The position numbers and the translations under genes are program-made. From a bacterium (GTDB lineage: Bacteria > ARS69): a stretch of DNA of 29,259 bases. Positions within the stretch are counted from its first letter, which is position 1, and every line of letters starts with the position of its first letter. Positions 4,458 through 18,481 of the stretch are shown here, in pieces. Where the stretch lies: assembly GCA_025774805.1 (NCBI GenBank), contig JALGZR010000075.1:1-29259 (forward strand), in the 5' to 3' direction. The notes under the pieces were generated by a model. It saw only the letters and a program-made list of their open reading frames with translations. It was not told the DNA's origin and ran no database searches.

Positions 4458-4652
4458 CTAGCCTCGATCCGTCAGAAAATCTCGGCGAAAAGCGCTGGCG
4501 CTCGCACGATAGCATGCCATCCGCGGCCGTGCTCGCCCTCGCCAATGCTCACTTATCGTGAGACAAGCTCCGCTTGGCTCGGGCTGCGCGCGACCCCGGC
4601 TGGCGCGCTCTCGTGCGTTTTCCCTCGAGTTTTTCTGACGGATCGAGGCTAG
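4458..4652 (+). mobile_element. 195-bp CTAG-flanked inverted-repeat element (MITE-like)
   Basis: The left 27 bases (4458-4484) and the reverse complement of the right 27 bases (4626-4652) agree at 26 positions: CTAGCCTCGATCCGTCAGAA and onward. Both ends carry CTAG, consistent with a 4-bp target duplication or CTAG-terminated repeats. The interior has further small hairpins (CTCAC/GTGAG and CAAGC/GCTTG) and no convincing gene. Short open frames across it look like artefacts of GC-rich DNA. No transposase is present, so mobility would need one in trans. Its right CTAG is shared with the left end of the next element. Confidence 0.7.
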
Positions 4653-4714
4653 CTTGCATGTCTCACCGGGCCAGTCCCACGGATCCGTCGAGTCCGGTGA
4701 GAAACACCGGCCAC
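4649..4714 (+). mobile_element. short copy of the CTCACC/GGTGAGA inverted-repeat family
   Basis: The left end CTAGCTTGCATGTCTCACCG (4649-4668) is mirrored by the right end CCGGTGAGAAACACCGGCC (4694-4712), leaving only about 25 bp inside. The transcript could fold into one long hairpin. It looks like an internally deleted relative of the 181-bp copy at 4820-5000. Confidence 0.55.
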
Positions 4715-4736: not shown

Positions 4737-4765
4737 TTGCTCGACCCCGGGGCACGGCCTATCCT
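4737..4765 (+). promoter_or_regulatory. sigma70-type promoter ahead of the DUF1460 gene
   Basis: TTGCTC (4737-4742), a 17-bp spacer and TATCCT (4760-4765) form a good promoter. About 20 bp later comes GAGGAGG (4774-4780) with ATG 4786 spaced by 5 bp. These are the best initiation signals in the region, yet they lead into a repeat element rather than directly into the gene. Confidence 0.55.
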
Positions 4766-4785
4766 GGACGCTCGAGGAGGCATCC

Positions 4786-4986
4786 ATGCGCCGTTCCCGG
4801 CGAATCTCGACGACTTCCGCTAGCCTGCGTTTCTCACCGGGCTCGTCGCGAGGCTGTGGATCGTCGTGCCTGGCGAGGAGACGGGGTGCTTTCGCCCGAG
4901 GCGGGGCCGTAGCCCCGTCGCAGGGCGGGAGCGCCGCAGCGACAAAGCCGGGCGCGGCGAGCCGCTGCCGCAGCAGAGGCTGGTGA
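4786..4986 (+). other. original 5' end of the DUF1460 gene, interrupted by a repeat element
   Basis: ATG 4786, with a strong GAGGAGG site, opens a frame reading MRRSRRISTTSA, which looks like the basic n-region of a signal peptide. It then enters the repeat element at 4820 and ends at TGA 4984-4986. This is the same reading frame as the downstream lipoprotein gene. Joining base 4819 to base 4997 would give the in-frame fusion TTSAGSVRARIGIGLAVLAG, a normal signal peptide. I read this segment as the displaced start of the DUF1460 gene, now possibly translated as a short leader peptide that ends 3 bp before ATG 4990. Confidence 0.5.
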
Positions 4987-5000
4987 GATATGCAGGCTGG
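4820..5000 (+). mobile_element. 181-bp CTAG/CTGG-ended inverted-repeat element inside a gene start
   Basis: The left terminus (4820-4840) and the reverse complement of the right terminus (4980-5000) agree at 17 of 21 positions, centred on CTCACC/GGTGAG. The flanking tetramers are CTAG (4820-4823) and CTGG (4997-5000), a probable 4-bp target duplication with one change. The interior contains smaller palindromes such as GGGGCCGTAGCCCC and has no transposase. Excision of 177 bp (59 codons) restores the host gene frame. The related copy at 18414-18481 shares both ends and looks like an internal-deletion form. Confidence 0.68.
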
Positions 5001-5925
5001 GTCCGTGCGCGCGCGGATCGGGATCGGTCTGGCGGTTCTGGCGGGAGTCGCGACGTTCGGAAGCGCGAGCGGGGGATGCGGCCCGCCGCGCGGCGATCCA
5101 CCGTCCCCCCGCGAGCGCTCGGACTCGCCGACCGACACCAACGCGGCGGCCTGCAGCGCTCTCGCCGCCCGTCTACCGGACGCGGGCGTCGTCGAGAGGT
5201 TCGTTGCGGCGACCGCGCTCCTGGTCGGCATCCCCTATCACGACGGCCCGCTCGGGGAGGGCGAGGCCGGAAGAATCGACTCGGATCCTCGGGTGGACTT
5301 CGAGCGGGCCGACTGTGTGACCTACCTGGAGGAGTCCCTCGCGCTGGCCCTCGTTCCCTCCGGCTCCGCCGCGGAATTCCTCGCCGCCCTCGACGCGATC
5401 CGCTACCGTGACGGCCGCGTCGAGTTCACGGCGCGCAACCATTACATGGTCGCCGATTGGATTCCGGCGAACTCGCGTCTCGTGGAGGACGTCACCGCCG
5501 AGGTCCTTCCCGGGAAGACCGTGAGCGTTTCCCGGGTGATCGACCGGGCGGCGTTCCTGAGGGATCACGGAGCGGAGCCATCTCCCGAGAGGGACCGGGC
5601 CCGGACGATCGAGATCAGAATCGTCCCCCGCGAGCTCGTGGCCCACGCCGCTCCCCGGATTCGCAGCGGCGATCTGATCTTCTGGGTCGGAAAGCGGGAG
5701 GGGATCTTCGTGGTGCACACCGGGCTCGCCGTGCGTAGCGAAGAGGGCGGGTTGCTCTTCCGGCACGCGTCCTCCAAGGCGGGCCTTGCGGTGGACGAGC
5801 CGTTGACCGAGTACGCGGAGCGCTCGGCGTTCGCGGCGGGTTTCCTGGTCCTTCGGCTCCGGCCCCCCTCCACCGACTCCGGAGTGGCGGGCGCGCGACG
5901 GACACCGGGAGCGGAAGGAGAGTGA
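4990..5925 (+). CDS. DUF1460 (NlpC/P60-like fold) lipoprotein, putative cell-wall amidase
   Basis: A 311-aa exported protein of the DUF1460 family, cysteine amidase-like enzymes implicated in peptidoglycan or N-acetylmuramoyl-peptide cleavage. The catalytic Cys is in RADCVTYLEES (about residue 108) and a His is in VVHTGLAV near residue 240, followed by the family-typical FRHASSKAG. The N-terminus has basic residues, a hydrophobic stretch (IGIGLAVLAGVATFG) and SASGGC, an approximate lipobox, so it is probably a lipoprotein. ATG 4990 lies inside a repeat element; GTG 5005 is an alternative start. The original start was probably ATG 4786. The stop overlaps the next gene (TGATG), so it is coupled to the GlmU-like gene and a wall-metabolism role fits. 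Confidence 0.85.
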   Translation: MQAGSVRARIGIGLAVLAGVATFGSASGGCGPPRGDPPSPRERSDSPTDTNAAACSALAARLPDAGVVERFVAATALLVGIPYHDGPLGEGEAGRIDSDPRVDFERADCVTYLEESLALALVPSGSAAEFLAALDAIRYRDGRVEFTARNHYMVADWIPANSRLVEDVTAEVLPGKTVSVSRVIDRAAFLRDHGAEPSPERDRARTIEIRIVPRELVAHAAPRIRSGDLIFWVGKREGIFVVHTGLAVRSEEGGLLFRHASSKAGLAVDEPLTEYAERSAFAAGFLVLRLRPPSTDSGVAGARRTPGAEGE

Positions 5926-16086: not shown

Positions 16087-18417
16087 ATGACCCTCGAGAT
16101 CGGTCTTCTGCTCCTGCTTCTCATGGGAATGGCCTACGTCTTCTTCACCGAGAAGCTGCCGATCGAGCTCACCGCGTTCGCCGGGCTCGTGGTGCTCGTG
16201 ATGGGCGGGTTCATTCCCGTCTCCGCGGCCTTCACCGGCTTCTCCTCGCCCGCGGTCATCACGATGCTCTCGATCTTCTTCGTGAGCACCGCGATCCTCA
16301 ACACCGGGCTGGCGGATCGCGTCGGGTACGGGGTCCATCGCTTGCTGGGGGGTCAGGAGAGGCTCCTCGTGGTCGCGATCATGACCGTCGCGGGCATCCT
16401 GTCCGCGTTCATGAACAATATCGCGGCGACCGCGGTGATGCTTCCCGCGGTCGCGAGCATCTCGCGGCGGACGGGGGTCGCCCCCTCGCGTCTGTTCATG
16501 CCGCTCTCCTTCGGTGCGATCCTCGGCGGCACGACGACCCTGGTGGGAACGCCGCCCAACATCCTGGCCGCCGAACTCCTGCAGGAGCGGGGACACCAAT
16601 CGTTCGGCCTCTTCGACTTCCTGCCGGTCGGGGGGACCCTTCTCCTCGTCGGGATGGTCTTCTTCCTGCTCACCGGGGATCGGTTGCTTCCCCGGCACGC
16701 CGGTGCGGCCTCGGTCTCGGCGCGGAGCGACCTCGTGCAGGTCTACCAGCTCCACGAGACCTTCTTCTCGATCCGCATTCCGCCCGGCTCCCCCCTCGAC
16801 GGGCAGACCCTGGGAGACACCGCACTCGGTTCCGCCCTCGGTGTCCAGGTCGTCGGAATCCTGCGCGAGGGACGCGGCAGACCCGCTCCCGAGGCGGGCT
16901 CCGTGCTGCTCGGAGGCGACGTCCTTCTCGTCCAGGGCAGCGCGGGGAACGTTCGCGAGCTCTTCCGCGTGCGGGGAGCCGAGTTCACCGAGGCCCGTCC
17001 GTCCGACCTCGCGGAGGACTCCGAACGGGTGACCGGGGTGAGCGCCCGGGTGGGCCAGGGCTCTCCGCTGGTGGGCCGGACGCTGCGCGAGCTCCGGTTC
17101 CGGGAGCGCTTCGGGGGGGTGGTGATGGGCGTTCGTCGCGGGGAGGCGTCAATCGACCGTGGGCTCGCCACTCTGACTCTCGAAGAGGAAGACGAGCTTC
17201 TCGTGCTCGGCCCCCGCGCGGGCCTGGACGAGGCCGCGCTCGAGCACCACTTCCACGTGACGACTCTCGACCGGAAGCGGTTTCGTGCTCTCCTCGAGCA
17301 GCTTCACGTGATCCGGGTACCGGAAGACTCGGGACTCGTGGACCGGACGATCGGAGAGAGTCGAATTCGCGAGCTCGTCGGTCTCACGATCGGGGGCATC
17401 CTCCGCGGAGACGAGACGATTGTCGGAATCGACCCCGAGGAGCAGATCCGCGCCGGTGACCGGCTTCTCGTCGCGGGAGAGGTGGAGCGCCTCCAGAGCC
17501 TCATCGCGCTGGGCGCGGTCGAGATCCAGCCGGCGGCGGGGACCTCCGCGCTCGAGTCGGACGGGATCGGACTCGTGGAGGCGACGCTGGCCCCGCGCTC
17601 GCGGAGCGCCGGACGAACGCTGATGGATCTGCGGTTCCGGGAGCGCACCGGTCTCCAGGTGCTCGCCGTCTGGCGGGAGGGAGAGCTCATCCACGAGGAC
17701 CTGGCCCGGATGCCGCTCCGGTTCGGCGATGCGCTCCTGCTCCACGGTCCCTGGAAGCGAATCCGTCTGCTCGCCTCCGACCGGGATTTCGTCGTGCTCT
17801 CGGAATCGGCCCGGGAGGAAAGGCGTACGAAGAAGGCCCCTTTCGCTCTGGGGGCTCTGCTCCTGATGGTCCTTCTCGTGGTGACCGGGTTCCAGCCGAT
17901 CCACGTCGCGGCCTTCACCGCCGCCACGCTCGTCGTGTTGACCGGGGCGATCACGATGGAAGAGGCGTACCGCGGGGTCGAGTGGCGCGCGGTTTTCCTG
18001 GTCGCCGCGATCCTGCCCGTCGGGGTCGCCATGGAGAGCACGGGGGCCGCATCGCTCCTGTCCGAGGCGGTCACCCGACACGCCGGCCCGCACGGACCGT
18101 ACGCCGTCCTGGCCGGACTCGTCCTGCTGGCCAGCCTCCTCAGCCAGGCGCTCGACGGTGCGCCCGCCGTGGTTCTCCTGACGCCCGTCGCCCTCACGGC
18201 GGCCGATAGCCTCGGTATCAATTCCCGAACGGTGATGATGGCGATCAGTCTCGCCGCCTCAGCGGCCTTCATGACCCCCTTCAGCCACAAGGCGAACCTC
18301 CTCGTGATGGGCGCGGGCGGCTATCGCGTTGCCGACTACCTGCGAGTGGGGACCCCACTGACCGTCGTCGTCCTCGCTCTGATCACGCTGCTCGTGCCCG
18401 TGTTCTTCCCGTTCTAG
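16087..18417 (+). CDS. SLC13/DASS-type anion permease with four tandem RCK_C (TrkA-C) modules
   Basis: A 776-aa ion-coupled anion symporter of the SLC13 family with regulatory RCK_C domains. The N-terminal membrane half (1-215) has VFFTEKLPIELTAFAGL, an ILSAFMNNIAATAVMLP hairpin and GTTTLVGTPPNILA, the substrate/Na+-site signature. The C-terminal half (about 585-776) has ALDGAPAVVLLTPVAL and the family-typical FMTPFSHKANLLVMGAGGYRVADYLRVG. Between them are four RCK_C-like repeats (about 222-300, 318-385, 405-475, 494-570), each with a (S/R)x(L/A)xGxTL-like turn and a GDxLLxxG-like end. Sulfate or dicarboxylate is likely; the exact substrate is unknown. ATG 16087 has GGAGA upstream. The stop TAG is part of a CTAG repeat-element end. 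Confidence 0.92.
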   Translation: MTLEIGLLLLLLMGMAYVFFTEKLPIELTAFAGLVVLVMGGFIPVSAAFTGFSSPAVITMLSIFFVSTAILNTGLADRVGYGVHRLLGGQERLLVVAIMTVAGILSAFMNNIAATAVMLPAVASISRRTGVAPSRLFMPLSFGAILGGTTTLVGTPPNILAAELLQERGHQSFGLFDFLPVGGTLLLVGMVFFLLTGDRLLPRHAGAASVSARSDLVQVYQLHETFFSIRIPPGSPLDGQTLGDTALGSALGVQVVGILREGRGRPAPEAGSVLLGGDVLLVQGSAGNVRELFRVRGAEFTEARPSDLAEDSERVTGVSARVGQGSPLVGRTLRELRFRERFGGVVMGVRRGEASIDRGLATLTLEEEDELLVLGPRAGLDEAALEHHFHVTTLDRKRFRALLEQLHVIRVPEDSGLVDRTIGESRIRELVGLTIGGILRGDETIVGIDPEEQIRAGDRLLVAGEVERLQSLIALGAVEIQPAAGTSALESDGIGLVEATLAPRSRSAGRTLMDLRFRERTGLQVLAVWREGELIHEDLARMPLRFGDALLLHGPWKRIRLLASDRDFVVLSESAREERRTKKAPFALGALLLMVLLVVTGFQPIHVAAFTAATLVVLTGAITMEEAYRGVEWRAVFLVAAILPVGVAMESTGAASLLSEAVTRHAGPHGPYAVLAGLVLLASLLSQALDGAPAVVLLTPVALTAADSLGINSRTVMMAISLAASAAFMTPFSHKANLLVMGAGGYRVADYLRVGTPLTVVVLALITLLVPVFFPF

Positions 18418-18481
18418 CCGGCATTTCTCATCGGGCTTGTCGCCGCCGCCGCCGCAGAGCCTCGTGAGATATGCGGGCCAG
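18414..18481 (+). mobile_element. 68-bp copy of the CTAG-ended inverted-repeat family, overlapping a stop codon
   Basis: The left end CTAGCCGGCATTTCTCATCG (18414-18433) mirrors the right end CGTGAGATATGCGGGCCAG (18463-18481). Both match the ends of the 181-bp copy at 4820-5000, including the GCCGCAG segment before the right end, with about 110 bp of interior missing. The CTAG contributes the TAG stop of the SLC13 permease. The folded transcript could act as a terminator-like structure. Confidence 0.6.

Follow-up and report, generated by a model that had tools for sequence, protein, structure and literature searches.

A 181-bp palindromic element interrupts the first codons of a DUF1460 lipoprotein gene in the window, the 29,259-nucleotide stretch of DNA analyzed here. 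With a probability of roughly 0.7, it serves as a portable relay of stop and start: after its insertion, ribosomes from the native start would terminate at TGA 4984 and begin again at ATG 4990. MITEs are a known class, of which a stop-start relay would be a new variant. The locus and its upstream neighbors comprise the following features.

4458..4652, unstranded: second palindromic element with CTAG ends, 195 bp, with other inverted ends (CTAGCCTCGATCCGTCAGAAAA); inverted repeat of 38 nt, 87% complementary
4649..4714, unstranded: third element, short, 66 bp, having CTAG 4649-4652 in common with the second; left end with 2 mismatches, right end degenerate and read by eye
4737..4765, + strand: conserved promoter TTGCTC-N17-TATCCT; the N17 spacing, with TTGCGG and TATCGT or TATCCT, is also present at the orthologous loci of G002 and G001
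4774..4780, + strand: native Shine-Dalgarno GAGGAGG, read from the sequence; the G002 counterpart is GGGAGGG
4786..4819, + strand: severed native start, MRRSRRISTTS; its ATG is at the start position of the G002 orthologue relative to promoter and Shine-Dalgarno
4786..4986, + strand: read-through ORF of 66 codons that opens at the native start, crosses the element, and closes at TGA 4984-4986
4820..5000, unstranded: palindromic MITE-like element, 181 bp including ends; 91.8% identical to the consensus of 46 aligned full-length copies
4820..4823, unstranded: left target-site copy CTAG, judged from neighboring elements with one common CTAG and from 35/77 copies with CTAG/CTAG
4982..5000, + strand: right inverted end GGTGAGATATGCAGGCTGG, with a Shine-Dalgarno-like GGTGA overlapping TGA, then ATG 4990
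4990..5925, + strand: amidase-like lipoprotein gene (DUF1460, PF07313), present form
4997..5000, unstranded: right target-site copy CTGG, one change from CTAG, read from the sequence

The -35 hexamer TTGCTC (4737-4742) and the -10 hexamer TATCCT (4760-4765) precede the native start ATG 4786; this promoter was missed by a strict sigma-70 scan. TGA 4984-4986 and ATG 4990 are in the same frame. The initial annotation had described these motifs and a start codon region that is repaired seamlessly when the repeat is removed. All of its motifs and coordinates are present on the sequence, including CTAG at 4820-4823 and CTGG at 4997-5000, and excision of 177 bp joins MRRSRRISTTSA-GSVRARIGIGLAVLAG in frame. 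Its assignment of the gene to DUF1460 was confirmed by a match (E 2e-33) to PF07313, a family since renamed AmiA-like. An open frame of 311 codons remains, which has a coding score and matches both PF07313 and orthologues; a search for the amidase in the named genomes gave no match. The upstream stop and ATG 4786 are 367 bp apart, or 110 bp when the elements at 4458-4652 and 4649-4714 are subtracted; the G002 distance is 97 bp. The 4458-4652 element falls in the gap that separates the upstream gene from the promoter.

The inverted ends of the 181-bp element read CTAGCCTGCATTTCTCACCAG, and its recurrence shows that it did not arise by chance. The window copy matched 39 other places in its own genome at 88–93% identity (among 40 scored of 403 first-look candidates). 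The 19-base end GGTGAGAWATGCAGGCTRG occurs at 348 sites in this genome with no more than 2 mismatches, and the reversed control occurs at 0. Ends were paired into 77 elements from 361 kb of stretches around copies, a sample picked by good ends and full length in a genome with 348 end-like sites. Forty-six of these are 181–183 bp in length and the remainder are mostly 55–98 bp. The element at 4820-5000 is a MITE by definition: it has terminal inverted repeats, is smaller than about 600 bp, has no transposase coding capacity, carries a CTAG target-site duplication (CTAG/CTGG in the window copy), and is absent at three loci from the corresponding sites of relatives, which are sister genera and not conspecific strains. 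Folded as RNA, the window element makes one extended hairpin with an energy of -136 kcal/mol and a z-score of -10.7. No match to Rfam covariance models was found. One strand always folds more stably as RNA than the other, by a mean of 30 kcal/mol in the genome's own copies (46/46), a difference that comes from G-U pairs. The bias has the same sign in most elements of other phyla (L144, L162, L176, and L222) and suggests selection on a single-stranded form. Minus-strand open frames within the element (44/46 and 40/46 copies; shuffles about 51%) were not counted as evidence, as the copies are related.

Most copies end in CTAG, which stands at both ends of 35 of the 77 elements. Abutting elements have a single CTAG in common (e.g., C87 27468/27534 and C175 3/182). 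Both patterns are expected because duplication of a CTAG target produces them, and the 4-bp duplication that the initial annotation proposed to look for was found in this form. Genes were called by a simple codon-usage method, and the 77 elements were placed relative to these calls. No element of the 77 lies wholly inside a called gene, and in 26 the terminal CTAG supplies the TAG stop of at least one host gene. C-TAG stops account for 53/75 near element ends vs 15/196 elsewhere (p 5e-25). CTAG is very rare outside elements: base composition predicts 1,075 sites in 361 kb and 67 are present, of which 37 are intergenic, 20 form stop codons, and 10 fall within genes. The sites open to an element that targets CTAG are therefore mostly at the ends of genes and in the spaces between them, and duplication of the CTAG rebuilds the stop codon TAG. 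In a genome of Deltaproteobacteria that shares these ends, 18/75 flanks show the stop-codon pattern as well. Elsewhere in the window, the left CTAG of a short element (18414-18481) carries the stop codon of a transporter-like gene (16087-18417).

Insertion into the start of the DUF1460 gene is well supported by sequence comparison with relatives, all of which belong to other genera. The syntenic amidase orthologues of G002 (58% identity) and G001 (55%), members of the same family, lack the element. The gene order Nif3-like, DUF protein, amidase, nucleotidyltransferase-like is common to the window, G001, and G002 (neighbor names read from sequence). All three have TTGC..-N17-TATC.T followed by a close start codon. 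In G002, the -10-to-start distance is about equal to that of the window and the Shine-Dalgarno is GAGG-like; in G001, the start codon lies 6 nt past the -10. The insertion history proposed earlier is supported: the element-free orthologues and the conserved promoter spacing agree with it. Against it, the first 12 codons could not be aligned residue by residue with the relatives. Two further loci have element-free counterparts. The DsbD gene start reads GGAGGAAACATGA/CTAG/G vs GGAGGTTCCATGACGAGA in G002, which has no element. The arginine decarboxylase start reads GTG AGT GAG C/CTAG/T..W vs ATG GCC CAT CCG AAT CGC TGG in G004, and G004 MAHPNRWTTNDSRELYRVDAWGGGFF aligns with VSEPSFWTIRDSVDLYRVDSWGAGFF with no gaps from the start codon onward.

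Eleven genes, including DUF1460, were called from the ATG in the element end (GGTGAGAWATGCAGGCTAG) among the 77 elements. An in-frame ATG or GTG is present 1–11 codons beyond the element in 10/11 of these genes vs 42/148 of all flanks (28%; Fisher p about 1e-5). The C87 case among the ten involves a nested element, where the upstream start is supplied by the end of a different element; leaving it out gives 9/10. The DsbD gene (C8:97610) reads GGAGGAAACATGA/CTAG/GGAGCGCC with an element copy of 83 bp, arginine decarboxylase (C170:25495) reads GTGAGTGAGC/CTAG/TTTCTGG, and the gene at C105:44440 reads MKP/RILMSAYACNP. Start-splitting insertions have codon phase xCT-AGx in 10 cases and CTA-Gxx in 2 (binomial p 0.04 for 10:2), and unoccupied CTAG sites inside genes number 3 and 7 in the same two phases. 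A general role as a mobile start codon was considered and rejected: the end-ATG frame is not enriched for long ORFs at 191 ends, and no starts at element ends were found in 75 flanks of an unrelated Deltaproteobacteria genome that shares the ends. Carrying such an end does not therefore generally mean supplying a gene start. Two elements near gene starts (C55:71926 and C11:42860) are in the other codon phase with an open 59-codon read-through. One of them lies within a predicted signal peptide. In this phase the left end encodes L-A-C, which may be a lipobox.

In frame, the consensus element end is (TGA)(GAW)(ATG)(CAG)(GCT)(AGx), and insertions of one phase near a gene start would thus be survivable. 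Candidate split starts number 12, the ten described above and the weaker C240 and C212, the latter with ACG for ATG. In 12/12 the native frame is open across the entire element and closes at the new start codon, either with TGA 6 nt upstream of it or with TAG 8 nt downstream. Same-phase entry ends at those two places in 84/154 cases over all elements and both orientations, which gives 12/12 a chance of about 7e-4, an approximate value as the copies are related. Folding of the RNA pairs the new Shine-Dalgarno and ATG with the left end of the element. Independent initiation looks poor because of this pairing, and the two signals would most likely be exposed by a ribosome coming from the old start, which favors reinitiation as the mechanism. 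The initial annotation had left two ways to start the protein, from the ATG of the element or by termination-reinitiation, and the second appears better supported.

The proposed mechanism is as follows. A non-autonomous palindromic element, probably mobilized by an IS1380-family (DDE) transposase, entered a CTAG at codons 12-13 of the DUF1460 gene and duplicated it. The native promoter, Shine-Dalgarno, and ATG 4786 stayed upstream of the element. Ribosomes loaded at ATG 4786 would translate across the full element over 66 codons, terminate at TGA 4984, and start afresh at ATG 4990 in its right end. The predicted product of the restart is MQAGSVRARIG..., with the lipoprotein signal peptide intact, and the gene may be expressed at present. 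About ten other genes appear to bear the same start replacement. Reinitiation here would follow melting of a -136 kcal/mol hairpin, a putative step that counts against the relay.

Initiation at ATG 4990 might instead be independent, driven by the GGTGA of the element end and uncoupled from the old start. The GGTGA is part of the anti-Shine-Dalgarno complement and ends 3 nt before the ATG, but both signals are within the hairpin stem, and uncoupled initiation would not require the native frame to end at the new start codon as it does in 12/12 candidates; this alternative is considered unlikely. The gene could also be broken, a decaying pseudogene in which the intact downstream frame is residual, as the native frame ends at TGA 4984 and a stable hairpin stands between the promoter and the gene body. 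Decay is quite improbable given that the element has already diverged 8% from the consensus, yet the 311-codon frame remains open and coding with its PF07313 match, and that about ten genes, arginine decarboxylase and DsbD among them, show this in-phase layout as well.

Coincidence would account for the locus if elements simply lie upstream of genes, short open frames enter their ends by chance, and the frame repair is accidental. Long open frames are usual in G+C-rich DNA and ATG-frame ORFs show no overall excess, but the upstream in-frame starts (10/11 vs 28%) and the element-free relatives at three loci make this very improbable. A misjoined repeat in the contig is hardly credible, even with a source assembly fragmented into 284 contigs: the sequence on either side is unique and keeps its synteny with G001 and G002, the junctions show a uniform CTAG, and the DsbD copy, of 83 bp only, has the same arrangement.

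The stop-start relay was compared with known palindromic elements. Rickettsia palindromic elements (RPE) are palindromes of about 150 bp located in-frame in genes (PMC10969869). They add an internal peptide by translational fusion, whereas the window element replaces the protein start through the stop-start of its end. In-frame read-through inside a protein, as in RPE, is prevented in the window by TGA 4984 and is found at C55:71926 and C11:42860. MITEAba12 of Acinetobacter likewise has start codons at the element ends, with possible fusion to host sequence (PMC6382973); in the portion of that report consulted, neither recurrence in one phase at about ten genes nor a stop-start geometry is described (PMC6382973). 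REP/RAYT elements are also palindromic with high copy number (PMC3733652). They differ in that the window element has two inverted ends and a CTAG duplication, not a GTAG tag, and a Y1 tyrosine transposase (PF01797) was not found in its genome. The open-access papers searched gave no earlier description of such a relay, with a stop and a start in a single phase across many genes.

If selected as translation relays, such elements would have remade the N-terminal ends of dozens of proteins within a single genome, with native control kept. A relay of this kind would show how a bacterial transposable element enters coding sequence without killing the gene, by an in-phase stop-start junction. The about ten genes with element-derived N-termini (MQA/MRA...) are a concrete testable set. 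The distribution of CTAG, almost only at stops and between genes, suggests a route to hundreds of copies in a gene-dense genome. Tentatively, and with more doubt than confidence, the element may have been selected as a translation relay, with its CTAG target and its ends jointly making insertion nearly harmless at stops, where TAG is rebuilt, and at first codons, where translation crosses the element, stops at its end, and restarts.

The IS1380 family is the best candidate partner of the element, judged from the ends. Ends in the IS1380 family read CTAGCC[CT]G[CG]ATTTCTCACGAG, or nearly so, and IS1380-like ends were found at L246, L248, L251, L258, L261, and L245. In some other genomes, PF13701 transposases are flanked by CTAACCCGGATTTCTCACGAG, CTAGCCCGGATTTCTCACGAG, or CTAGCCTGCATTTCTCACGAG, and about 18–20 of the 21 end bases are common to the element and the ends flanking these transposases. 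IS1380-derived MITEs resemble it further in being palindromic, non-autonomous, and about 180 bp. In contrast, its own genome (assembly about 96% complete) has no intact PF13701 gene and one 115-residue fragment without the element's ends. The partner transposase expected of an IS1380-derived MITE was thus not found in this genome, and a past partner is possible. No Y1 (PF01797) or DDE_Tnp_1 transposases were found there. The target duplication of IS1247 is given as 5 bp (PMC3281130) and differs from the 4-bp CTAG of the window element.

When named genomes were scanned for the pattern, the same 21-base end turned up in Deltaproteobacteria, Eisenbacteria, Gammaproteobacteria, Acidobacteria, Verrucomicrobia, Nitrospira, and other assemblies. 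No match was found in the plasmid collection, and one contig matched in the viral collection. Palindromic elements of 170–290 bp with the same 21-base end and diverged stems are present in several phyla (L144, L162, L176, L200, L222, L146, and others). The inner motif CGTCGCGAGG ... CCGCAGYAG is common to many elements of other phyla. Elements of the sister genus G002 (L010, L012, and L018) share the inner core, but their inverted ends are quite unlike those of the window element (e.g., CTAGTTCGGGTGGCGGGAGGG), as if the core had exchanged ends. In a Deltaproteobacteria assembly (L144-L221), many contigs start or stop within roughly 100 bp of an element end, which would fit a break in assembly at the palindrome.
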